The position numbers and the translations under genes were made by a program. From Parapedobacter defluvii (GTDB lineage Bacteria > Bacteroidota > Bacteroidia > Sphingobacteriales > Sphingobacteriaceae), in NCBI RefSeq assembly GCF_014642075.1, contig NZ_BMIK01000011.1, positions 65,550 to 129,549 of the forward strand: a stretch of DNA of 64,000 bases, given 5' to 3'. The notes under the pieces were generated by a model. It ran no database searches. It had not been told where the DNA came from and saw only the letters and a list, made by a program, of their open reading frames with translations. This document shows positions 1 through 12,299 of the stretch, in pieces; positions within the stretch are counted from its first letter, which is position 1, and every line of letters starts with the position of its first letter.

Positions 1-535
1 AGAAATGATAGCCTTTGAAATCTTCGTCAAAATTCTCTTTTATTCTTGATCTATTTACTAACAGAAAGACCCCGTCAACGACTACCGCCGGAGTAATCAG
101 GCTGGCTTTTCCGCTCCACCATAAATCTATGATGCCATCTTTATGATGTGGATGAAATATCAGCCCTAAAGTATTGTCTTGGCCGCTATCAAACCATGCG
201 CCTTTGTCTCGCTTTTCATTAAGCTCAGCAGTTCCGGCAATTCCTAAAATGCCGTATTCGCTTTCTGCCAATACTTTAACTAAACTTGGTCCCCAATCAT
301 TTTCTAAAAACAAAGTATCGTTATGAATGAATAGAATTGTTTCGGAGTCTGAATCAATAAGCGCTTTGTTATATACTTCGCTTAAAGAAAACTGATTGAA
401 ATTCTCGTATTTCTGAATTGTTATATTTTCGTGTGGAAACCCCGACGTTCGCAAAAGCATACGTTCAAAAATTTCGTTTTGTTCGGCGGTATAGTTGCTC
501 GAATAAGCTATGGTTAGAAGAGTTTGTCCTGTCAT
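1..535 (-). CDS. StrF-type glycosyltransferase, partial (3' end outside window)
   Basis: An open frame reads from an ATG at 535-533 down to base 1 (178 codons) with no stop, so the C-terminus lies outside the window. The start MTGQTLLTIAYSSNY, the HNDT acidic motif near residue 80, and VVVDGVFLLVNRSR followed by FDEDFKGYHF near the window edge match the Glyco_tranf_2_5 (StrF-like) family, whose members end this block with a conserved GFHFYD-like segment. These are cytosolic GT-A fold enzymes using nucleotide sugars. It lies 165 bases downstream of the HlyD-type gene on the same strand and is AT-rich like that operon, so it may belong to it, but the gap could hold its own promoter. The substrate cannot be read from sequence. 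Confidence 0.75.
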   Translation of the reverse strand, partial: MTGQTLLTIAYSSNYTAEQNEIFERMLLRTSGFPHENITIQKYENFNQFSLSEVYNKALIDSDSETILFIHNDTLFLENDWGPSLVKVLAESEYGILGIAGTAELNEKRDKGAWFDSGQDNTLGLIFHPHHKDGIIDLWWSGKASLITPAVVVDGVFLLVNRSRIKENFDEDFKGYHF

Positions 536-700
536 CGTTTTTTGATTTATATTCTGTAAGGCAACATTGGTTTCTAAAGGCGTTCTAAAAGATTAAAAAA
601 GGGAAAGCAGGGTTGTTTTTACCTTTGGGTTGCAAAACAGATCCTTTCTTAATGTCAAATATCGACGTATTCAAAAGTGATAGGGATATACTAAGCAGCG

Positions 701-2032
701 TCACCTGCGTTCCATCACTAGTCGCATACTCCGCAGTAATCGCTGCATCAGTGTAGCATCCTCGGTGATTATTTCTGCCGTACCGATCATGCCCGTGGTT
801 AAATAAATCGGGCTGCCAGATTCCATAGGCTTGAAATCCACGCGTGAAAGGAAGATGCTATCCCGGTAGGGTACCTTATTAAGCTTAGCCACTGTTCCCA
901 ATACGACCCCATATTCCTCGAACGGATAGCTTGCGAGTTTGACTAATACCTGCAGCCCGACTTTTACCTTCCCCATATTGAGCTGCGGGATGACCGCTTC
1001 GCCGAAGAAATCTGTACTACCGGCGTTGACAAGGAATACCTCCCTTCCGCTCTCGATATGCTGGTATGGTTGGATAATCCCAGAGAAGATGACGGAGCCC
1101 GGTGTCGGGGCCGTAAGCACATTTAGCATCTTCCATTGCTGCATCTCGCTGACTAAGCTGTTAAGCGCTTGCTGGAACTTCGCTCGCTCCTCCGCGATTT
1201 TATTGTCCAGATCGGCCAGTTCCCTAGTTTTGCCCATGCGTGCAGCCTCGATGGAAAGCAGGCTTGATGCTGTTTGTTGTAGGGGATGCTGCTTAGCGAG
1301 CAGTGCGGCCCGTTCCTTTTGGTATTCGGCAGGTGAGATTACTTTCTTATCCGCAAGTTGCTCATAGCGCATGAATTCGGTTTCAGCGATATTAAATTCC
1401 CGCTGTTGCAGCTCTTGTTGTTTGACTAATTGGGCCCTTTGCTGGCCAATGTTTACCATGTCGCGGAGAAGATAATCCCGTTGTTTCCGGTAGATGCCGT
1501 CTTCTTTGGCAGCCCGGTAGCTTAGGTATGACTGGTAAAAGGCCTGGTATCCCGGCTGTAACTCCCCCAACCGGATCCTCGAGGGTGAGACAAAATCATC
1601 TGATACTGTCCCTTCGGGCGTATACAAGCTGTCTCGAATGCGTTCCAGTCTTTCCAGCATATCCAATACCTGCTGATGATCGGCCGTGCTTTCCATCCAG
1701 GCCAATTCCTGCCCCTGTTTAACAGCTTGGCCGTCTTCAACCAGAATATTGACGAGATTGCCGGCCACCCTGCTGACAACGGGCTTGGGCGCATTGACCG
1801 CATTGACACGGATTGGGGCAATCACCACATCGGGATACTTGATAAATACAGATAACGCTACGATGACTAGTAGCACCACCAACACCCAGGTAATGCCCCA
1901 CCTCATTAGCGCAGCGGGCGGGGCGCTGATGATATCCTGCACATCTTCAGAATGGATTTGCCGCCCATTGTGTGATGCACTCCTACCCACTGTAATATGG
2001 GTGATCGTTGGCTGCGGTGACTGTTGCTCCAT
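701..2032 (-). CDS. HlyD-family membrane fusion protein (adaptor of peptide exporter)
   Basis: A protein of 443 residues. One membrane segment sits at about residues 45-67 (WGITWVLVVLLVIVALSVF), then a biotinyl-lipoyl-like half (VSRVAGNLVNILVEDGQAVKQGQ), a long coiled coil of about 200 residues rich in Gln/Glu/Leu, and a returning beta domain (TAPTPGSVIFSG). This is the classic architecture of the periplasmic adaptor that links an ABC exporter to an outer-membrane channel. It starts 12 bases after the stop of the C39-ABC transporter gene, so the two are almost certainly co-transcribed and work as a pair. No TolC-like outer-membrane gene is visible in the window; the channel must be encoded elsewhere. 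Confidence 0.9.
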   Translation of the reverse strand: MEQQSPQPTITHITVGRSASHNGRQIHSEDVQDIISAPPAALMRWGITWVLVVLLVIVALSVFIKYPDVVIAPIRVNAVNAPKPVVSRVAGNLVNILVEDGQAVKQGQELAWMESTADHQQVLDMLERLERIRDSLYTPEGTVSDDFVSPSRIRLGELQPGYQAFYQSYLSYRAAKEDGIYRKQRDYLLRDMVNIGQQRAQLVKQQELQQREFNIAETEFMRYEQLADKKVISPAEYQKERAALLAKQHPLQQTASSLLSIEAARMGKTRELADLDNKIAEERAKFQQALNSLVSEMQQWKMLNVLTAPTPGSVIFSGIIQPYQHIESGREVFLVNAGSTDFFGEAVIPQLNMGKVKVGLQVLVKLASYPFEEYGVVLGTVAKLNKVPYRDSIFLSRVDFKPMESGSPIYLTTGMIGTAEIITEDATLMQRLLRSMRLVMERR

Positions 2033-2044
2033 GGTAATAGCTTA

Positions 2045-4225
2045 TTAATTGCCTAATTCTAGCTGATTTTTGACCAGTTGGTAATATTCACCCCTTCGTT
2101 CGGTTAGTTCCCAATGTGTTCCCTGTTCAACGATCCTGCCTTTGTCCAGTACTAAGATGTTATCGGCATGGCTTACTGTGCTGAGCCGGTGTGCTACGAT
2201 GATAGCCGTTCGGCCTTCAAGAAAGCCGATGAGGTTGTCGATGATTACTCGCTCATTATTGGCATCCAATGCATTGGTGGCTTCGTCAAATAAGATATAT
2301 CGCGGGTTTTTGTAAACTGCACGAGCAATCAACAGGCGCTGGCGCTGTCCTTGGCTAATGCCTTTACCGGCTACACCGATTTTTGTCTTCAAGCCAAAGG
2401 GTTGTTCCTCAATAAACTCCTGTAGATTGGCGGTTCTTATAGCATGGTTCACCCTTTGTGGGTCAGGGTACTCATCACCGACGGCGATGTTGCGCTCGAT
2501 GGTGTCGGCAAAGATGAACCCGTCTTGCATGACAACCCCACATTGATCCCGCCAAGACGAGAACCCAATCTGTGCAAGTTTTTGCTGACCGACGCGGATC
2601 TCTCCGGATTCTGGCTCGAAAAACCGGAGGATCAGCTTGAGTATGGTTGTTTTTCCACTACCACTCATACCAACAATTGCTGTGGTCTTACCTTCGGGAA
2701 ACCGTATGTCGACGTCTGTGAGTACTGGCTCGTTACCTGCGCCGGGATAGCGGAACGTTACCCCTAGTAAAGTGATACTCTTGTCCTTCGGTAGCTCACG
2801 CATCCATTCATTTTCCATTGGCTCTTCATCCGGTTCGCGGTAAATTTCGTTAATACGCTCCAGGCTGATTTGGGCATCTTGATAGGATTGAATGAACCCG
2901 AGGATCTGTCCAATTGGACTAGAGACCATACCTACGATGTATTGGATCGCCATCATGCCGCCGAGGGTAAGGTCACCATCGATCACCGCTTTAGCACTCA
3001 AGAAAGTGATTAAAATGCTTTTTAGCTGGTTGATGGCCATGGAACCAGCCTGTTGGTATTGTGCAAGAGCAAGGCTCTTTACCTTGAATCTAAACAAGCG
3101 TGCTTGTATGCCCTCCCACAGCCAGCGTTTCTGCCGTTCGGCATTGTTAAGTTTGATCTCCTGCATCGCTTCTACGAGCTCGACGATGGCAGTTTGGTTA
3201 TCAGAGGCGACAGCAAACCTGCGGTGATCCAGTTCGCGCCTACTTTTAAGGAAGAGCAGGATCCAGCCTGTGTAGAGAATCGAAGCACCAAGAAAGATGG
3301 AGAAAATCCCTGCATGGTAAAAGGCCAGCACAAAGCCGAAAACAATTAGATTAATAAAAGAGAACATTGTCCCCAACATGGAACCGGTCAGGAAACTTTC
3401 AATGCGTTGCTGATCCGCCATGCGCTGCATGATGTCGCCCGTAGTCTTCGTCTCATAGAATTTCATCGGCAACTTCATCAGTTTGATGAGCATGTCAGTC
3501 AGGATTGAAATGTTGACACGTGTACTGATGTGCAGTAGTATCCAGGATCGGATAAAATCCACACCCACCTGACCAATAAACAAGGCAATCTGGGCGATCA
3601 GGATAAGATGAATGAAATTTAGGTTGCGCGTATTGATGCCGATGTCGACTACCGACTGGGTGAGGAAGGGCGTAACCAGCTGAAGGATCGTGCCGACAAG
3701 CAATCCGAGGGTAAGCTGGACGAAAAGCCTGCGATAAGTGGCGAAATAGCGTAACACAGCATTCCATTTCAATGTTCTCGTCTCATCTTCCTCCCTTTCA
3801 TAGAAGGTCGGGGTTTGATTCAGCAATAGTGAAATGCCGTTATGGAGTTCTTCGTGAGCGAACCAATTGGCAGCGAATTCCTTTTTATCCAACTTACGTT
3901 TGCAATTGGCGGGATCAGCGATGTGATAATAACCTTTTTTGACTCGATAAAGAACCACGAAATGGTTTTGCCGCCAATGCAGAATGCAGGGAAGGTGTAT
4001 CTCATCGAGTTGTTCCAGAGTTAGTTTGACCCCCTGTGTACGGAAGCCGATTTTCTCTGCAGCCTCACTGATGCCCAAAAGATTTACTCCGCCTTTTGTA
4101 ACTTGGCAAAGTTGACGCAGGCGATAGATATCAATGTTTCGGCCGTAGTGGCGGCATATGATGCGCAGACAGGTAGCTCCGCAATCCATCTGGTCCTGTT
4201 GACGGTGGTGGGGAAAGGGTCTCAC
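2045..4225 (-). CDS. Peptidase C39-containing ABC transporter (PCAT), double-glycine leader processing and export
   Basis: A protein of 726 residues with the full PCAT order. The N-terminal C39 cysteine peptidase has Gln9/Gln10, catalytic Cys15 in DQMDCGATCL, His88 in RQNHFVVLY and Asp104 in YYHIADPA. The six-helix ABC membrane domain covers about 165-440, and the C-terminal ATPase has Walker A GMSGSGKTT near 520, signature ISQGQRQRLLIARA and Walker B YILFDEATNALD. All catalytic residues are present, so it should cut after the Gly-Gly of a leader and pump the core peptide across the inner membrane. The matching substrate is the 100-residue peptide gene at 7410-7712. It lies 25 bases after the second glycosyltransferase gene and 12 before the HlyD gene. 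Confidence 0.94.
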   Translation of the reverse strand: MRPFPHHRQQDQMDCGATCLRIICRHYGRNIDIYRLRQLCQVTKGGVNLLGISEAAEKIGFRTQGVKLTLEQLDEIHLPCILHWRQNHFVVLYRVKKGYYHIADPANCKRKLDKKEFAANWFAHEELHNGISLLLNQTPTFYEREEDETRTLKWNAVLRYFATYRRLFVQLTLGLLVGTILQLVTPFLTQSVVDIGINTRNLNFIHLILIAQIALFIGQVGVDFIRSWILLHISTRVNISILTDMLIKLMKLPMKFYETKTTGDIMQRMADQQRIESFLTGSMLGTMFSFINLIVFGFVLAFYHAGIFSIFLGASILYTGWILLFLKSRRELDHRRFAVASDNQTAIVELVEAMQEIKLNNAERQKRWLWEGIQARLFRFKVKSLALAQYQQAGSMAINQLKSILITFLSAKAVIDGDLTLGGMMAIQYIVGMVSSPIGQILGFIQSYQDAQISLERINEIYREPDEEPMENEWMRELPKDKSITLLGVTFRYPGAGNEPVLTDVDIRFPEGKTTAIVGMSGSGKTTILKLILRFFEPESGEIRVGQQKLAQIGFSSWRDQCGVVMQDGFIFADTIERNIAVGDEYPDPQRVNHAIRTANLQEFIEEQPFGLKTKIGVAGKGISQGQRQRLLIARAVYKNPRYILFDEATNALDANNERVIIDNLIGFLEGRTAIIVAHRLSTVSHADNILVLDKGRIVEQGTHWELTERRGEYYQLVKNQLELGN

Positions 4226-4251
4226 GATTAAATTAAATAGCTAAGGCTTTT

Positions 4252-4926
4252 TTACATTTTGGTTAGCCTGCCGGGACTATGGCGGTCACAAATGTCGATT
4301 AGCATTTCCAACTTCTTATTCGATCTGTAAAAACAATTAGCAAGGCTACCATTGCCTTGGCATTCGCTAGATCGAATATCTGAGTAGCCAAAGTCTTTTT
4401 GGACGGAAATAAATGGATAGATTAACATTTTCAAACTCGTCAACGCTGAGAGCTTGCCGTCAGCGGTATCTTTTTCGCCGAATGGTTCTCTACGTATAAG
4501 AGGAAACATATATTTGTTTAAAACGATTAATTGGGTTCCGTAAAAATTATCAACCCAACTGAGCTGTCTCGTAATCGGAATGGCTTGGTTGAACCAACTT
4601 ACACCGCCCAGTACCATATTGCATCCCAAATCAAAAGCCCGTAATATGCTGTCAAAAAGAAATTGCTTCGAATAGTGTGGCGTAAACTCATGGCCATCCT
4701 CACAGATAATGATCACATCATCATCTTTTACCATCGCTATATCGACAATATTGACAATACTATTCCACAGACTGAAGGAATCTTGCGAATGTCCAGAGGC
4801 CTCCACGATTGTTAAAGCAAATTCACCCCTGCCGTTGAATTGCTCTCTAATATGCTTACGCCGATCCTCCCGTTCAGGCAGGTTGATCACATACATGGGA
4901 ATAGAGATTTCTGAATAATCAATCAT
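4252..4926 (-). CDS. GT25-like glycosyltransferase, downstream paralogue with altered EDD motif
   Basis: A protein of 224 residues clearly paralogous to its upstream neighbour: both share YVINLPEREDRRKHI-type N-termini, a central LWNSI block, IIICED, LLGGVSW/VLGGVSW and SIQKDFGYSDI near the C-terminus. The INL-x-R-x-D-R start and the Cys-Glu-Asp-x-His segment resemble glycosyltransferase family 25 (lipooligosaccharide type). Here the acidic motif reads E76-D77-G78, while the neighbour has E-D-D, so this copy may have changed or lost catalysis. Its start overlaps the neighbour's end by 8 bases, implying translational coupling. The position inside a peptide-export operon suggests a peptide or its outer-membrane partner as acceptor, but that is inference. 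Family call is by motif only. Confidence 0.6.
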   Translation of the reverse strand: MIDYSEISIPMYVINLPEREDRRKHIREQFNGRGEFALTIVEASGHSQDSFSLWNSIVNIVDIAMVKDDDVIIICEDGHEFTPHYSKQFLFDSILRAFDLGCNMVLGGVSWFNQAIPITRQLSWVDNFYGTQLIVLNKYMFPLIRREPFGEKDTADGKLSALTSLKMLIYPFISVQKDFGYSDIRSSECQGNGSLANCFYRSNKKLEMLIDICDRHSPGRLTKM

Positions 4927-5599
4927 TTGGTCTATAATTATTAAATTCTATTTTGTAATAACTGGCTACGGATTTTAGCTGGTTGAGTTTTTCTGTCTGG
5001 GCGCTAAATAAACTCGATACTTTGCCTTTTTTGTCATTGCCTGTGGTAATATCAGAGTAGCCGAATTCTTTCTGGATGGAAATAAATGGATGTAACAAAA
5101 AAACAGCGTCGGAAAGCGTGGAAAATTTCAGATCTGCATCGTCTCCTGGAACGAATTCTGCGCGCAGAATTCGTTCAAAAAATTTTCGGAAGACTACCGT
5201 GAATTGAAGTCCATTAAATCTGTTCACCCAGAATATTTCTTTATCTACTTGCAATGTAGAGTCCAGCCAACTTACTCCACCCAGTAATACATCAGCCTTC
5301 CATTCTCCGGCCATCGATATGGAGTCAAATAATCTTTTCGTATTGTATTCTTTTGTAAAGACATGATCATCTTCGCAAATAATAATGAAATCATCCTTTC
5401 CAGTCAGTGCATTTTGTATGATTTGACATATGGAATTCCATAAGCCGATTGCTCCGATCTTATGTCTTGAAGCAGGCACAATGAAAACCTCGAATTCTTT
5501 CCTTCCTCCGAATTCTGATATTATGCTTTGTTTTCGATCCTTGCGCTTTGATAAGTTAATTACAAAAGTTTTGATCCGTGCCTTTCGATCTATTATCAT
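4919..5599 (-). CDS. GT25-like glycosyltransferase
   Basis: A protein of 226 residues. The N-terminus TFVINLSKRKDRKQSI is the GT25-type nucleotide-sugar binding start, and C75-E76-D77-D78-H79 is the acidic metal/sugar motif expected of the family. There is no signal peptide, so it should act in the cytosol, before export by the C39 transporter. Its first codon overlaps the stop region of the TlpA-like gene by 4 bases and its end overlaps the second glycosyltransferase by 8, so the three are translated as a coupled set. It could modify Ser/Thr or Cys of the precursor peptide, as in glycocins, or act on an unrelated surface sugar. It is AT-rich compared with genes beyond 12.6 kb. Confidence 0.62.
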   Translation of the reverse strand: MIIDRKARIKTFVINLSKRKDRKQSIISEFGGRKEFEVFIVPASRHKIGAIGLWNSICQIIQNALTGKDDFIIICEDDHVFTKEYNTKRLFDSISMAGEWKADVLLGGVSWLDSTLQVDKEIFWVNRFNGLQFTVVFRKFFERILRAEFVPGDDADLKFSTLSDAVFLLHPFISIQKEFGYSDITTGNDKKGKVSSLFSAQTEKLNQLKSVASYYKIEFNNYRPND

Positions 5600-7179
5600 T
5601 GATTTTTATTTTCGTTTCCCTCGAATTCGCTCTTCAGTTTGGACTGAATTCTTATTTCTCTGACCGTTTGTTTCTCCCAAGTGGAAGAGTGGTCACCATT
5701 GGTTAGATAGTCATTTATTAAGTCCCTTATCTCGTTACCATCTGGACCAGGAGCATTTTTATGGACCAACCGGCCTGCAGCGTCGTACAATAGGTAACGA
5801 GGTATCGCCCCAAGTTGAATTTGTTTGGCCCACTCGGATTTACCCGGGTTCAGAAGCAGAAAACTGCCAGGGAATTCCGATACGCCTTCCTGCTTTGCTG
5901 CTTTCTCCCAATCGTCAAACTTACGGTCAAGCGCCAAGTACATGAAACGGATAGGCTTGCCCGCATAATCCTCCCTTAACCGATGCGAGGCTGGCATAAC
6001 CTTACGGCAGGGTTCGCACCAGCTTGCCCAGAGATCCACATAGATGACGTTACCTTTACTTGCTGCAATGATCGCAGATAATGTAGTCGTTGCCTTGCTT
6101 CCATCCATTAAAAACATGGAGTCTGTGGCCAAACGAAGCTCACTGAAATCGAGGAAATACGTATTTCGGATTTCATTCACTAGATTGGTATCTTTAACCG
6201 CCGATGAGAAAGCATGCATTAACATCTTAAAACTGTCTACCGGTAGTAAATCTGCCGCCAAAGTCACCTCGTTATACAGCATAATTTCCTTAATCCGAAC
6301 GGGATAAATAGGTGATTCGGCAAGTTCGCGAAAATGGCGGGTAAATGTTCCCGAACTACGTGTTTTACTTTCGTATGCCTGACAGAGTCCGAGTAAGTGC
6401 GAGTAGGGCAAAAGGTGACCATCTCCATTTTTGGCACCTTCAATGATACGACGTACATCTGCGTCACTGATGATTCCCAGCCTGTATTGAATTAGGTATC
6501 TATCAAACAGTATTTGGTCCTTTTTCAGCGCATAGGCGTTCTCGGATATGAGTGCGTTTATTTTTAAGCTGTCCAGCATATTCATCTCCAACATGGATTC
6601 GGCTAGTGCCTTTTCGCCCCATGTTTTGCTTTCGTCCATATTGAAACTAAACCTATTGGAGGTCGAGTCGGAACTATTTGCATACTTGAGTACAGGTGCA
6701 AAGAACATCAGTTTAGCCGAATAGTACCCGTTACTGTACAACGCACGAACAAAAAGGGAATCGATGCTCAAGTCCATCGGCATAAACGGCCGGTTTGTAA
6801 TCATGAAGATAGGATTCTCGCCCTCATAGCGGACCTCTAGGGTGTCGCCGCTTTGGACGAGAATCTCCGCCTTATAAAATCGGTCGTACCTGTGTTGGAC
6901 AATCGCTTGGCCATTTTTCAGGCTGAAGGTTATCGTATCTGGTCCACGCCCATTAAGTTCTATGGGGTTAGCCCAGAAATTATCCCAAATGGTAAGGGCT
7001 TTGATATTGGTGTTCATATTCGAGTTAACCACGACGGTGTCCGAAATGATCGGCGCGTCTTTCAAGATCAGCGTAAAGGTGGAATCGCTGCTGTCGCTAA
7101 TGTTATTTGATTCGGCATTATTACATCCAAAAAGCAACAGAAATGACGTTAGAAAACCTATAAAACTATCTCCGTACAT
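5596..7179 (-). CDS. TlpA-like thioredoxin-fold lipoprotein (thiol-disulfide oxidoreductase)
   Basis: A protein of 527 residues. A short hydrophobic start ends in LLLFGC at Cys19, a probable lipoprotein anchor although Phe at -2 is not ideal. A long middle part (about 30-370), typical of Bacteroidota TlpA proteins with a DUF4369-like N-terminal beta domain, precedes a C-terminal thioredoxin domain with VIYVDLWASWCEPCRKV, the active-site pair being the Cys of WCEPC, and a later cis-Pro loop (GAIPRYLLYD). It should sit in the periplasm and reduce or reshuffle disulfides. It is placed between the peptide precursor and the glycosyltransferases and overlaps the latter by 4 bases, so its substrate may be the exported four-Cys peptide. 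The start ATG follows an AT-rich, Shine-Dalgarno-free stretch. Confidence 0.85.
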   Translation of the reverse strand: MYGDSFIGFLTSFLLLFGCNNAESNNISDSSDSTFTLILKDAPIISDTVVVNSNMNTNIKALTIWDNFWANPIELNGRGPDTITFSLKNGQAIVQHRYDRFYKAEILVQSGDTLEVRYEGENPIFMITNRPFMPMDLSIDSLFVRALYSNGYYSAKLMFFAPVLKYANSSDSTSNRFSFNMDESKTWGEKALAESMLEMNMLDSLKINALISENAYALKKDQILFDRYLIQYRLGIISDADVRRIIEGAKNGDGHLLPYSHLLGLCQAYESKTRSSGTFTRHFRELAESPIYPVRIKEIMLYNEVTLAADLLPVDSFKMLMHAFSSAVKDTNLVNEIRNTYFLDFSELRLATDSMFLMDGSKATTTLSAIIAASKGNVIYVDLWASWCEPCRKVMPASHRLREDYAGKPIRFMYLALDRKFDDWEKAAKQEGVSEFPGSFLLLNPGKSEWAKQIQLGAIPRYLLYDAAGRLVHKNAPGPDGNEIRDLINDYLTNGDHSSTWEKQTVREIRIQSKLKSEFEGNENKNQ

Positions 7180-7282
7180 TGTTAAAGCGATTGATAAAAA
7201 TGACTACTTGACCAGAATGCAGCTTTTGTTTTATTCAAATGACACTGCGTGGCAGATATTTCTCCTTCATTTGACACAATGG

Positions 7283-7309
7283 GCAAATAGCAGGGAAGCT
7301 GCTATTTGC
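7283..7309 (-). terminator. Perfect 11-bp hairpin between precursor gene and TlpA-like gene
   Basis: GCAAATAGCAG at 7283-7293 and its exact complement at 7299-7309 enclose a five-base loop. No T-tract follows on the minus strand, so it is not a classical intrinsic terminator. A second, 8-bp inverted repeat (TCAAATGA at 7235-7242 and TCATTTGA at 7267-7274) lies just downstream. In peptide operons such hairpins often cause partial termination or stabilise the precursor mRNA so that the peptide is made in excess; that role is inferred here. Confidence 0.45.
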
Positions 7310-7409
7310 TTTGTTAGGAAGGTTTCACAATCTATCATTAATATGCAAGGTGTCTGAATGCTTGTATTAAATGCATAGCAATGATTTGATTGGTTGGAGG
7401 ACCTTTTCT

Positions 7410-7712
7410 TCAGTACCAAGACGCACTAGCGCAGCTATCGCAGCACCATTGTCTGCCATCTCCGGCTGTGTTAGCCATGAGATTGTCCGCGTCGGTTCTA
7501 GATATACCACGTAGAATCCAAGTAGATCCGATATTACCGTCTCCCATATCGGAAGATTGTCCAGAACCTGAAGCGTCCCAGTTCAATTCTCCTGTTGCAG
7601 TCCAGCCACTTGGTAGATAGACAGCACAGGTGCCACCGCCTACAATTTGTTTCAGCTGCTCCCTCGTCAGGATTTCCCCTACATTCTTGAAATCCAATTT
7701 TAACTTTTTCAT
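7410..7712 (-). CDS. Double-glycine leader precursor peptide, four Cys, candidate modified peptide
   Basis: A 100-residue peptide. The leader (1-26) is lysine-rich and ends in L15-TREQLKQIV-G25-G26, which fits the double-glycine leader rule with Leu at -12, Leu at -7, Ile at -4 and Gly-Gly at -2/-1; Gln replaces the usual Glu at -8, as is common in Bacteroidota leaders. The predicted core (27-100, 74 residues) is rich in Gly, Ser, Thr, Asp and Trp, has Cys29 near its start and Cys90, Cys91 and Cys94 in the C-terminal WCCDSC, and ends SASWY. Four Cys allow two disulfides. It sits between a VKOR/thioredoxin fusion and a TlpA-like protein, with a C39 transporter downstream. The core matches no bacteriocin I recognise. 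Confidence 0.85.
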   Translation of the reverse strand: MKKLKLDFKNVGEILTREQLKQIVGGGTCAVYLPSGWTATGELNWDASGSGQSSDMGDGNIGSTWILRGISRTDADNLMANTAGDGRQWCCDSCASASWY

Positions 7713-7852
7713 TTTTCTAAAGTTAGGGCAAGAATTTACCCGATTTTAAATAACAAAAACTGATACGTTCAACACGAGTTCTTTACTTAATTCGTGCATT
7801 CTCATTTTTCTTCTTCTGTTGCTTTTTTTCTTGACTTTTCTACCTCCTTCTT

Positions 7853-9511
7853 TTACTTTGTTAACAAGTACTTTAGATCATTTGCCGTGTATATCTCTGG
7901 TAAGTGGTAGCCGTTAACAAAAATCGTAGGTGTGAAACTGATACCTGTTTTAACACACCATTTCGCCATCGCTTTCAGCTTTAAGCCTTGCTTTTCGAGT
8001 TCACCGTTCATTGGGTATCTAGTTGCAAAAGCGGCGTAATCTTTGTCTATGGAACGATACCAGTCGTCTATGGCCCGTTGGGTCAATTCGTCGTCCCTCT
8101 TTTCGGCAATTGCCATCAGGTGCTTTACCGGAGCAGCTCTCATGTCTTTTTGACTATCAGTAGCCGTAAAGATAATCTGCAACTGTACCTCAGGATTCGT
8201 TGCAAGAATGCTCTCCAACATCACGTGTGCTTTTGAGCACGGTCCGCAATAAGGATTGCATACCTTGACGATTTTGTGTTTGGCATCCGCATTCCCAAGT
8301 GTTATGCCCAACCCGTGTGTGGTTTCCATAATGGTCGGTTGTTGACTGAGTATAGCTTGAAAGATACCGGGATCATGTTTCAGTCGCGTGAACGATAGCC
8401 AATGGCTACGCCCTAGACGGGCGGCTTTTAATGCGGGAATCAGTAGCTGGACGGCGATGAAAACCAAGCTTGCAAATATGGCATAATCAATGATTGCCCC
8501 TTCCAACCCCTGACTAGCACCAAGATAATTGTACGATCCGGTATACAGGGCCAATCCGGCCTGGAGGGCCAAGATGACCAGCGTGGCCAGGCATAGCCGA
8601 CACCATTGTCTGGCCACACGCCATTGGTAATATAGGGAAAATACAATATACGTAGTGGCCAACAGGGAAATTACTGACAGAAGTGGGAGAACCTGCATAT
8701 TAGTTAATCCGGCAGTAGCCAGCATTAGAAAAGCGCCCAGAAAATAGCTGAAGCCTATCTTCGCCCAGCTGGTTCCCGAAATGTTTGCACCTTTGGATTC
8801 CAGCAATGCGGAACAACCGCTTCTATCAGCATCGCCTGAACAAACCTGGCGCAGCGCTAGGTTATTCGTATCGGCTTCGTACCAGACCAATAGTAAGGTA
8901 ATATAGACGCCTATAACAGCGAGCAGCAGATATATTGTGTTAGCCCAGCCGTTATCAAGAGCGGGAAATGGGCCCAGTACGTAATACATTGCGAGGGTAC
9001 AAGCAACCAAGAGCGGCATTGTAAGCGCCGCGACCCGGCCGACAACCTGCTGCCTTTCTTTTTTTCTAAAGCTGGAGTAATCGTGCTCGATGGGTAATTT
9101 CTCATCTACTGCAAGTAATATGACCCCCGAAAAGCAATCTAAAAAGGACGCCCTTGGTTGCTTGGTCCATTCCCCCGTCTCAGTGTCCATGTATTCAACT
9201 TCCATTTCATCCGCTCTTTGGACGACGGTAAATTTCATTTGACCACTAGTATTACGCACCTGTGCGATAAAGGGTGGCTTAACGTCTGATAATTGCTCAG
9301 CGCTTATCCGCAAGCCACTGTTTATGACTCCTACTTGGTGCAGGCCCTCGCTGATCGCCAGCAGACTTGGATAATCGGGATGCGTTTCAATAGCGTCTGC
9401 CACCATTGTTCTAGAAATGGGTACGTCGAGACTTCTTGCCAATACATAAGCAGCATGGATCGGATTTTCCATACGGGGTACTACTAGCGATTTCAAAAGG
9501 TGTTTTATCAT
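7853..9511 (-). CDS. C39-like domain / VKOR / thioredoxin fusion, disulfide-forming membrane protein
   Basis: A protein of 552 residues in three parts. Residues 1-140 look like a C39 peptidase fold (HPDYPSLLAISEGL, PPFIAQV), but there is no Cys before 126 and the catalytic His position is replaced (MKFTVV), so it cannot cut and may only bind. Residues 155-365 form a VKOR membrane domain with loop cysteines C224 and C233 and the quinone-side pair C304-x-x-C307. Residues 385-552 form a DsbA-like thioredoxin domain with C422-G-P-C425 and cis-Pro in TPTIFVNG. Such fusions pass electrons from a substrate thiol to quinone, making disulfides in the periplasm. It is the first full-length gene of the operon, 140 bases upstream of the precursor gene. 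Confidence 0.88.
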   Translation of the reverse strand: MIKHLLKSLVVPRMENPIHAAYVLARSLDVPISRTMVADAIETHPDYPSLLAISEGLHQVGVINSGLRISAEQLSDVKPPFIAQVRNTSGQMKFTVVQRADEMEVEYMDTETGEWTKQPRASFLDCFSGVILLAVDEKLPIEHDYSSFRKKERQQVVGRVAALTMPLLVACTLAMYYVLGPFPALDNGWANTIYLLLAVIGVYITLLLVWYEADTNNLALRQVCSGDADRSGCSALLESKGANISGTSWAKIGFSYFLGAFLMLATAGLTNMQVLPLLSVISLLATTYIVFSLYYQWRVARQWCRLCLATLVILALQAGLALYTGSYNYLGASQGLEGAIIDYAIFASLVFIAVQLLIPALKAARLGRSHWLSFTRLKHDPGIFQAILSQQPTIMETTHGLGITLGNADAKHKIVKVCNPYCGPCSKAHVMLESILATNPEVQLQIIFTATDSQKDMRAAPVKHLMAIAEKRDDELTQRAIDDWYRSIDKDYAAFATRYPMNGELEKQGLKLKAMAKWCVKTGISFTPTIFVNGYHLPEIYTANDLKYLLTK

Positions 9512-9640
9512 AATTCGATTTTAATCGCGTTTTTTTCAGGAGTACGAGGAGGAGCATAATATTGTCCCATCAACAATCCTCATCCGTGCTGAAATCGGCA
9601 GTAGAACTGAATACGTTCATTCAATCCTCTTTTGCCCCAT
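9508..9640 (-). other. Chain of three tiny overlapping ORFs in the operon leader
   Basis: Read on the minus strand: ATG at 9640 gives MGQKRIE and stops at 9617; ATG at 9620 overlaps that stop as ATGA and gives MNVFSSTADFSTDEDC, stopping at 9570; ATG at 9570 overlaps as TGATG and gives MGQYYAPPRTPEKNAIKIEL, whose TGA (9510-9508) overlaps the ATG of the VKOR fusion, again as ATGA. AGAGGA- and GAGG-like purine stretches precede the second and third ATGs; none precedes the VKOR start. The arrangement suggests translational coupling or a leader-peptide control element. It may still be chance, since the ORFs are very short. Confidence 0.35.
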
Positions 9641-9736
9641 TAATATGTTAAAAATATCATGCTTGTTTGGGGAGAATCAGGTTAAAATTCTACTCAATCC
9701 CAATGTATCATAATTTAATTTGCGTCTAAATTACGA

Positions 9737-9766
9737 CAAATATAATTAATAAATATTATTTATCAA
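9737..9766 (-). promoter_or_regulatory. Bacteroidota-type promoter of the peptide operon
   Basis: On the minus strand a -7 box TATATTTG (9744-9737) matches TAnnTTTG exactly, and a -33 TTG (9766-9764) lies 19 bases upstream, the spacing expected for the main Bacteroidota sigma factor. Transcription would begin near 9730, leaving a leader of about 220 bases before the VKOR fusion gene, which carries the tiny ORF chain. The surrounding 9720-9840 stretch is very AT-rich. Confidence 0.6.
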
Positions 9767-10205: not shown

Positions 10206-10620
10206 AGATTACACCTGGATTTCATGCACGATACGTTGGCCAATGGCAAGACGATCCGGACGCTGAACATCATCGATGATTTCAGCCGTGAGGCACTTTC
10301 CATTTCGGTGGACGCGAGCCTTCCGGCCCACCGCGTGATCCGAGAATTGGAGAAACTGGTCGAATGGCGGGGCAAGCCAGAGAAGATCCGCTCGGACAGC
10401 GGACCGGAATTCATGGCAGCGGCGGTGACCGAATGGTGCGGTAAAAAACAGATAACATGGGAATTCATCCAGCCGGCAAGCCCACACAGAACAGCCTGAT
10501 TGAGCGGTTCAACAGAACCTTCCGCCGGTGAATTCCTGTTGAAATATGGAAAACTCCCAACCCAAAATGGCCAGTGCCAGTTTCCCACATTACAACAGGA
10601 TAACAACAGCAAATCTGGTG
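10206..10620 (+). pseudogene. IS3-family transposase (integrase-core) remnant with two frameshifts
   Basis: From about 10206 the frame reads DFMHDTLANGKTIRTLNI, then IIDDFSREALSISVD, EWRGKPEKIRSDSGPEFM and QITWEFIQP, the DDE integrase core of IS3-type OrfB (family block normally D...NGP-E-F...). After IQP one G is missing compared with the expected IQPGKPTQNSLIERFNRTF; the latter reads on in the next frame from about 10471. A second shift occurs after FRR at about 10530, where the frame meets TGA and EFLLKYGK continues in another frame. The 5' half (OrfA and the start of OrfB) and the true C-terminus are missing. It is a dead fragment. No terminal inverted repeats could be assigned. Confidence 0.8.
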
Positions 10621-11093: not shown

Positions 11094-12299
11094 ATGGTCA
11101 CCAAGGGTTATAATCTGTACAAATCACTGATAGTCAACATATTGATTAACATGAAAAATATCAACGCGTGCAGGCAGCGTTTTGTGGTCAAGGCCGTTAC
11201 CCTTTTCCTCTCGATAAAGGGTCGGGTCAATTTCCAGCAACTGGGAAGGTACGGCAAATATAGCGAACAGCGTTATCGCATCCAATTCGAAAAGCCATTC
11301 GATTTCATGGAATTCAACTGCAGCCTGGTCAGGGAACATGCCAGTGGCCATTATATCATCGCCCTTGACCCCAGTTTCATCGCCAAATCGGGCAGGCAAA
11401 CACCCGGCATCGGCTATTTCTGGTCGGGCCAGGCGGCCAGGACCAAACGGGGGCTGGAGATGCTGGGTATGGCGGCAATCGATGTGGACAACCACACCGG
11501 ATTCCACCTGGACGCCTGCCAGACGCTGACCGGTAACCATCCCGACAGGTCACTTGCCGGGATCTATGCGGACTGCTTCACCGGCCACAGTGAAAAACTC
11601 TCGGAACTCTCCCGCGTCGCTGTCGCCGATGCATGGTTCACCAAGAAGTCTTTCATCGATGCGGTTTGCGGTGCCGGTTTCCAGTTCGTGGGCAGGATGC
11701 GCGATGACGCCAACCTGAAGTACCTCTACACCGGCCCACAAAAACCCGGTCGCGGAAGGCCACGGGTGTACGACAGTAAAGTCAACCACCAAGATATCAA
11801 AACCGAACATTTCCCTGAAGTGGTACTGGAAGATGGAACCCTCGCCACCACCGCCGTCGTCTATGCCGTATCACTCAGGCGCAAAGTCCGTGTGGTAAGG
11901 GTACCGTTCGACAAGAAGCACAGACTGTACTTCTCTACCGACACGGAGATGGATGCCGCAACTATCGTCAGATACTACAGGCTACGCTTCCAAATCGAGT
12001 TCATATACCGCGACGCCAAACAGTTCACCGGGCTGGAGAACTGCCAGGCAAGGAGCGAGAACAAACTGGACTCCCACTTCAATATGGCCCTGACGGCAAC
12101 AAACGTAGCCAAAGTTGCGCACTGGATAAGCATCCCGAAAAAAGAACGGGGTGCGTTCTCTATAGCCGATATCAAGACGATGAACCACAACGCCTTACTG
12201 ATGGATAGATTTTTTTCAACCTTTGGCGTGAACCCACACTTGCGAAAAAATCAGAAACATGTCAAAGAACTATTACTATACGGCACTATTGCCGCTTAA
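11094..12299 (+). CDS. IS4-family transposase (apparently intact)
   Basis: A protein of 401 residues. The three parts of an IS4 DDE catalytic core are visible: ALDPSFIAKSG (first Asp, near 95), VAVADAWFTKKSFID (second Asp, near 182) and YYRLRFQIEFIYRDAK near 299-314, which fits the Y-(2)-R-(3)-E-(6)-K signature exactly and supplies the catalytic Glu. No frameshift or internal stop is seen, so the enzyme may be active. An internal ATG at 11151 (MKNINACRQRF) is a possible alternative start. It lies in a gene-poor stretch beside a dead IS3 fragment. Terminal inverted repeats and target duplication were not resolved. Confidence 0.88.
   Translation: MVTKGYNLYKSLIVNILINMKNINACRQRFVVKAVTLFLSIKGRVNFQQLGRYGKYSEQRYRIQFEKPFDFMEFNCSLVREHASGHYIIALDPSFIAKSGRQTPGIGYFWSGQAARTKRGLEMLGMAAIDVDNHTGFHLDACQTLTGNHPDRSLAGIYADCFTGHSEKLSELSRVAVADAWFTKKSFIDAVCGAGFQFVGRMRDDANLKYLYTGPQKPGRGRPRVYDSKVNHQDIKTEHFPEVVLEDGTLATTAVVYAVSLRRKVRVVRVPFDKKHRLYFSTDTEMDAATIVRYYRLRFQIEFIYRDAKQFTGLENCQARSENKLDSHFNMALTATNVAKVAHWISIPKKERGAFSIADIKTMNHNALLMDRFFSTFGVNPHLRKNQKHVKELLLYGTIAA

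Follow-up and report, generated by a model that had tools for sequence, protein, structure and literature searches.

Three described systems come close to the locus reported here. Bacteroidetocins (class IIf; PMC6671954, PMC8546649) are double-glycine (GG) leader peptides of Bacteroidota with paired Cys, encoded with a C39-ABC exporter and a thiol oxidoreductase; one studied member has an odd Cys count (PMC6671954, PMC8546649), and a protein with five transmembrane segments is a further feature of these systems (PMC6671954). Glycocins (sublancin, glycocin F, and the thg cluster; PMC12457901) combine a C39 exporter, thioredoxin-fold oxidoreductases, and disulfides with a peptide glycosyltransferase. 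Clusters for ribosomally synthesized and post-translationally modified peptides (RiPPs) of Bacteroidales hold a C39 peptidase/ABC exporter (PCAT) with GG precursors, some with glycosyltransferases; they were found via radical SAM, LanC, GlyS, and YcaO, and VKOR and thioredoxin go unmentioned (PMC10352776). We analyzed a 64,000-nucleotide stretch of the Bacteroidota member Parapedobacter defluvii (contig NZ_BMIK01000011.1; G000:C11:65550-129549), referred to as the window, which begins inside an operon encoding a GG-leader peptide, its export and oxidation genes, and a pair of GT25-like enzymes. We consider it likely that this operon makes an exported peptide with paired disulfides, probably glycosylated before export, and that the glycosyltransferase module of the family is exchangeable, with the segment between the GG and the first Cys (the linker) following the module.

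Precursors, linkers, and glycosyltransferase modules

The window precursor (100 aa; 7410..7712, − strand), of the CCDSC...SASWY subfamily, had been predicted to be a double-glycine peptide with four Cys, and this is what it is: a 26-aa leader ending in GG precedes a 74-aa core, with Cys29/90/91/94. The calculated mass of this core with two disulfides and no other modification is 7724.2 Da (average) or 7719.29 Da (monoisotopic). A leader profile built without any core information, which matches this precursor at 5.5e-13, was searched in 400 genomes of the order and found family members in 135 of them. The precursors share the leader consensus MKKLxLxxxxxxxxExLTRxQLKxVxGG (lengths 26–29 aa), and the Cys count is even, most often 6, in 163 of 166 distinct ones; by sequence, the family is one of putative disulfide miniproteins. 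Leader-found loci were fetched in two rounds (60, later 40 more), and about 150 related loci were compared overall.

The operon encodes two glycosyltransferases, GT25b (226 aa; 4919..5599, − strand) and GT25a (224 aa; 4252..4926, − strand), which are called GT25-like because their PF01755 scores, 20.0 and 20.6 bits, respectively, fall below the cut-off of 24 bits. GT25b was modeled with AlphaFold from 39 homologues at a predicted local distance difference test (pLDDT) score of 92.3, and the best structural match of the model is human COLGALT1 (9evj_B; Z 18.2, root-mean-square deviation 2.4, 174 residues, 18% identity), followed by other glycosyltransferases including beta-1,4-galactosyltransferases. 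The model supports a predicted GT-A fold for GT25b like that of COLGALT1, a protein-modifying galactosyltransferase. The two GT25-like enzymes of the original prediction are therefore both present, and modeling bore out the glycosyltransferase fold for b, but with scores below the cut-off they remain sequence candidates and are better read as the two halves of one unit, paired or fused, in which the second half is often degenerate. GT25a is about 40% identical to GT25b and carries EDGH where GT25b has an intact EDDH motif; nearly all readable GT25 pairs or fusions keep at least one EDDH, and the other half is often degenerate. We propose that GT25a is a partner subunit of a catalytic GT25b. 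COLGALT1 itself, a eukaryotic enzyme that modifies collagen hydroxylysine, has two GT-A-type domains per chain, recalling the GT25a/b fusions. Searches of PDB sequences with the GT25 profile and with the precursor gave nothing useful, and tblastn found no match of GT25b in plasmids or of the precursor in phages.

Relatives of GT25b occur in 47 named loci, every one from Bacteroidota (Pedobacter, Chitinophaga, Mucilaginibacter, Sphingobacterium, Olivibacter, Niastella, Flavobacterium, Prevotellaceae, Tannerella, and others); Pedobacter nyackensis (L037) and Chitinophaga polysaccharea (L045) are among the carriers. In 43 of them, the pair or fusion lies beside a precursor or chassis genes (C39-ABC, HlyD, VKOR, or TlpA), the four exceptions being loci shortened by contig ends, and in 36 of the 47 a C39-ABC gene is found less than 10 kb from GT25. 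Because C39 domains are so sparse, at about one per 4–5 Mb in relatives (28 matches, 31 genomes), this arrangement goes beyond chance. Few genomes have GT25 at all (54 of the 400 from the order; 3 of 296 from a sample of the class), and a check for co-occurrence of leader and GT25 was positive: 43 of the 400 genomes hold both, 11 only GT25, and 92 only the leader (odds ratio 10.8, p 1e-13). Conservation of GT25 with lipopolysaccharide (LPS) genes where the precursor is absent, named in the original prediction as the outcome to look for against it, was not what we found, since these rare enzymes cluster with C39, VKOR, and precursor genes. The assignment of the GT25-like enzymes to the peptide thus stands, and the idea of an LPS gene block was rejected on this distribution and linkage.

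Leader-found chassis loci hold GT25, or a second module that we call GTX, or neither (chassis-only). GTX consists of a 490–570-aa enzyme, with PF02709 (Glyco_transf_7C) in some members, and directly after it a ~320-aa LanC-like protein; the two genes are nearly always adjacent (L119:11840-14484, L122:11741-14305, L130:12400-15102, L124:5645-8361, L165:10371-12879, and others). Among the first 60 loci, 22 held GT25, 15 held GTX, and none held both (p 4e-4), while a single locus with the two together (L181) appeared among the next 40. GT25 and GTX are nearly mutually exclusive.

The linker differs with the module. GS or SG occurs in 21 of 25 linkers from leader-found GT25 loci, compared with 5/19 for GTX and 4/15 for chassis-only loci (9/34 for these two taken together, p 1.6e-5). 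Two or more Thr are present in 14/19 GTX linkers, in 0/25 with GT25, and in 1/15 from chassis-only loci, whose linkers are short and poor in Ser/Thr. The 40 later loci, used as a held-out set, gave the same picture (GS in 4/5 for GT25, Thr in 6/7 for GTX, and a mean of 0.38 Ser plus Thr in chassis-only linkers). Even homologous cores bear different linkers by module: the ...DCRPGTC... core has STGSGGSGGSGS, FRDNGGSGG, or ASGSG with GT25 and FMSTSDSITIPG with GTX.

Relatedness between loci was addressed by a genus-stratified permutation, which gave p 0.012 for the association of GT25 with GS, and on a VKOR tree of 70 rows, which shows a minimum of 24 changes of module state. Independent pairs on this tree had GS going with GT25 in 6.8 cases and the opposite in 0.1 (median p 0.016); an earlier, 53-row contrast had fallen short of significance (p 0.125), and the value of 0.016 was reached after the 40 loci had been added. 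The link between GT25 and a Gly/Ser linker is therefore supported at the sequence level. The link between GTX and Thr is weaker, strong by counts and short of significance on the tree. Taken together, the sequences suggest a peptide-glycosylation system in which the glycosyltransferase module would be exchangeable across Bacteroidota and the linker would vary with it.

Some other loci deserve mention. At L160:9452-11239, five tandem related precursors, all with cores of the CYCPGQG type and short GSG linkers, lie beside a GT25 pair. L128 (G158:C11:163500-183327) is apparently decaying: next to VKOR, TlpA, and a split C39-ABC, it has pieces of GT25 on either strand and a precursor that is truncated, with the linker DFGSGSGSGSPKNSCM. 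A 205-aa protein with no significant Pfam match recurs at L045:12722-13339, L050, L070, and L035, in three of them directly after the GT25 gene, and further sugar genes at other loci include Branch, GT10, GT6, GT11, and UDP-galactopyranose mutase.

Export and oxidation genes and the extent of the operon

All the genes named by the original prediction were recovered in place, on the − strand and with open frames. The oxidase gene (7853..9511; 552 aa; Pfam C39, VKOR, and Thioredoxin_4), described there as a VKOR-thioredoxin fusion, does combine VKOR with a DsbA-like domain, but an N-terminal C39-like domain had been overlooked. This domain (approximately residues 11–139) is followed by the VKOR membrane domain and a C-terminal DsbA/thioredoxin domain. 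The VKOR Cys 224/233/304/307 and the CxxC 422/425 are invariant in 60/60 homologues, and the catalytic Cys of the C39-like domain is gone, its position being Asn in 48/60. The N-terminal model (pLDDT 88.6) matches the PCAT1 peptidase (Z 17.0) and leader-bound LahT150 (6mpz, Z 16.6). Because the modeled fold is like that of these peptidases, with the catalytic Cys lost and the VKOR and CxxC Cys kept, the dead C39 domain is probably a leader-binding module that would bring the precursor to the oxidase. We propose that the whole VKOR-C39 fusion is a leader-guided disulfide catalyst.

The exporter (726 aa; 2045..4225, − strand; PF03412 at 128.9 bits, ABC_membrane, ABC_tran) is the complete C39-ABC protein that had been predicted, with C15/H88/D104 all in place and the DCG motif found in 57/58 homologues; having both live C39 catalytic residues and ABC domains, it is a PCAT. 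Pfam domains likewise agree with the calls of a HlyD-type periplasmic adaptor (443 aa; 701..2032, − strand; HlyD_3 at 30.3 bits, above the cut-off) and of a TlpA-like thiol-disulfide lipoprotein (527 aa; 5596..7179, − strand; Thioredoxin_8 and Thioredoxin, with a lipobox-like LLLFGC and the CxxC motif WCEPC), of which a relative is present in 16/47 GT25 loci.

The prediction that these genes form one operon was supported and extended. TlpA and GT25b overlap by 4 bases, GT25b and GT25a by 8, and 12 bases separate the ABC and HlyD genes; the same-strand run then continues for ~5 kb beyond window base 1, where it was read from the stretch L003. The glycosyltransferase seen at the window edge is a GT2-type enzyme of family PF13712 (Glyco_tranf_2_5), whose N-terminal 178 of 564 aa lie in the window (1..535, − strand, on to L003:14391). 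After it come two LanC-like proteins (PF05147; L003:13164-14375 and L003:11882-13132, both − strand) and a DUF5672 protein (L003:11156-11827, − strand), all past the window edge.

GC content is 34–41% in the tailoring genes versus 47–52% in HlyD, ABC, and VKOR; as GT25 is AT-richer than C39-ABC in 49/57 loci, this contrast is weak evidence of module transfer. Immediately upstream of the operon, the window holds an integrase core (rve) remnant and a DDE transposase (10224-10499 and 11094-12299). A scan for sigma-70 promoters gave no excess over shuffled sequence; some 230 bases before the start of the VKOR gene, the − strand reads TATATTTG (9736-9746), a candidate that resembles the −7 box of Bacteroidota promoters. 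A role in anti-phage defence was rejected, as PADLOC gave no match.

Proposed pathway and competing explanations

In the pathway that we propose, two C39 domains would bind the GG leader, the dead one in the VKOR fusion and the live one in the exporter. The GT25 pair, with b catalytic and a as partner, would add a sugar in the cytoplasm to Ser/Thr of a flexible Gly/Ser-rich segment, possibly assisted by the GT2-type and DUF5672 enzymes. Gene content, folds, motifs, co-occurrence, and covariation are what the analysis shows; the sugar and its type, like the position and timing of its attachment, are what we infer here. The C39-ABC/HlyD exporter would then cleave after the GG and secrete the core, in which the VKOR-DsbA fusion would form disulfides in the periplasm, with reshuffling by TlpA. 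By analogy with bacteroidetocins, the most likely role of the peptide would be antagonism of other Bacteroidota. The original prediction had the GT25 enzymes possibly decorating the Ser/Thr/Cys-rich core: judging from the compared sequences, peptide glycosylation is likely in the family, but the acceptor is more likely the linker between the GG and the first Cys.

A number of observations weigh against this account. The linker of the window precursor is only 'GT', and its Ser/Thr/Gly-rich stretch, ASGSGQSS from residue 47, lies inside the core between Cys1 and Cys2; the Hoylesella oralis homologue (L057), with a near-identical C-terminus, has GT25 and short GGSG stretches. A homologous precursor of the same genus (L132, G007) comes with VKOR, TlpA, C39, and HlyD genes and without GT25, precursor homologues at L109 (G341) and L115 (G217) have neither chassis nor GT25, and orphan precursors with Gly/Ser linkers exist in genomes without detected GT25 (G129, G341, and G328). 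The linkers of GT25 loci L172, L149, and L157 contain no GS or SG, the independent pairs for Thr with GTX (6.8 same, 1.0 opposite) were not significant (median p 0.07), and the COLGALT1 match is evidence of fold, not of acceptor. Because of the 'GT' linker and the L132 chassis without GT25, glycosylation is less certain for the window peptide than for the family; in favor of it are the enzymes and chassis together with the pattern in the family, and the peptide may also be unmodified. A bacteroidetocin-like bacteriocin with plain disulfides, on which the GT25 pair does not act in this strain, would fit the missing Gly/Ser linker, the GT25-less homologue, and the EDGH of GT25a, and synthetic bacteroidetocins are active when unglycosylated (PMC6671954). 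Yet GT25b keeps its EDDH, both GT25 frames are open and overlap by 8 bases, a degenerate partner is common at other loci, and four more tailoring-type genes lie downstream, so that we regard this explanation as unlikely.

It is less probable still, and to us doubtful, that the GT25 and GT2-type enzymes serve to make a surface glycan or to modify a different protein, such as the TlpA lipoprotein, their adjacency to the peptide genes being historical. PF01755 takes its name from enzymes of LPS biosynthesis, a high AT content like that of the tailoring genes is often seen in acquired glycan genes, and UDP-galactopyranose mutase is present in some loci; however, GT25 is rare and accompanies peptide export genes across many genera, the linker composition covaries with the module, held-out set included, and the GT25 genes overlap their operon neighbors by 4 and 8 bases. 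Lanthionine formation by the LanC-like proteins, making the product a lanthipeptide, is very improbable. Two PF05147 proteins do lie in the operon, and GT25 fusions stand beside LanB and LanC in Chitinophaga (L048 and L053) and Sphingobacterium (L071), but the operon encodes neither LanB nor LanM, the only LanB match of the genome being on another contig (C13). LanC1 lacks the zinc ligands (Cys, Cys-His) that LanB-associated LanC retain, and LanC2 has lost most of them, so no lanthionine is expected, and a lanthipeptide identity was rejected on both grounds. Zinc-less LanC-like proteins adjoin glycosyltransferases repeatedly (L003:11882-14375; L119:13528-14484; L122:13328-14305). As a separate observation, the fusions at L048, L053, and L071 lie inside class I lanthipeptide-type clusters (LanB, LanC, and C39-ABC), which suggests from gene content that GT25 may tailor lanthipeptides too.

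Meaning and comparison with known systems

We are inclined, with some reservation, to see in these loci a modular Bacteroidota system for glycosylating secreted disulfide miniproteins, in which either of two modules would be swapped onto a chassis with a leader-reading VKOR-C39 fusion, each with its own linker type: a GT25 pair, one half catalytic and the other often dead, or a GT7C-like enzyme partnered by a LanC-like protein without zinc ligands. If this is true, a phylum with few characterised peptide products would hold a large, sequence-recognisable set of glycosylated disulfide peptides. Peptide glycosyltransferases would gain two new candidate classes, and the linker would indicate which acceptor each of them prefers. 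For GT25-like enzymes and LanC-like proteins, this use would be new among peptide natural products, and LanC-like proteins that lack zinc sites would gain a candidate role; the discovery of glycosylated peptides would be directly testable in Pedobacter, Chitinophaga, Mucilaginibacter, Sphingobacterium, and oral Prevotellaceae. Literature searches on VKOR with C39 in RiPPs, GT25 in RiPPs, and Bacteroidota glycocins, in a collection without most subscription journals, turned up no account of this system, nor of VKOR-C39 fusions or GT25-like pairs in peptide clusters.

Compared with class IIf, the window has the thiol oxidoreductase, the C39-ABC exporter, and the small Cys peptide. As to the protein with five transmembrane segments, the observation here is that the VKOR fusion is a membrane protein. 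Bacteroidetocin leaders, however, measure 15–16 aa (PMC6671954), a length not found in the window family with its 26–29 aa, and the four-gene region sufficient for bacteroidetocin activity contains no glycosyltransferase, whereas the window operon has the GT25-like pair. With glycocins, the operon has in common the C39 exporter, the GG precursor, the thioredoxin-fold oxidoreductases (VKOR-DsbA and TlpA), and the even Cys number. A SunS-type glycocin was nevertheless rejected, and the operon is not filed as a glycocin, because no SunS-type enzyme was found: in this genome, the best match to the SunS-family GT2 model (TIGR04195, cut-off 350 bits) reached 24.9 bits on another contig, with none among the cluster proteins. 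What sets the window operon and its relatives apart from glycocins is the GT25-like pair or the GT7C-like/LanC-like module, a variable linker from the GG to the first Cys that is probably the acceptor, and the fusion of VKOR to a C39-like domain.
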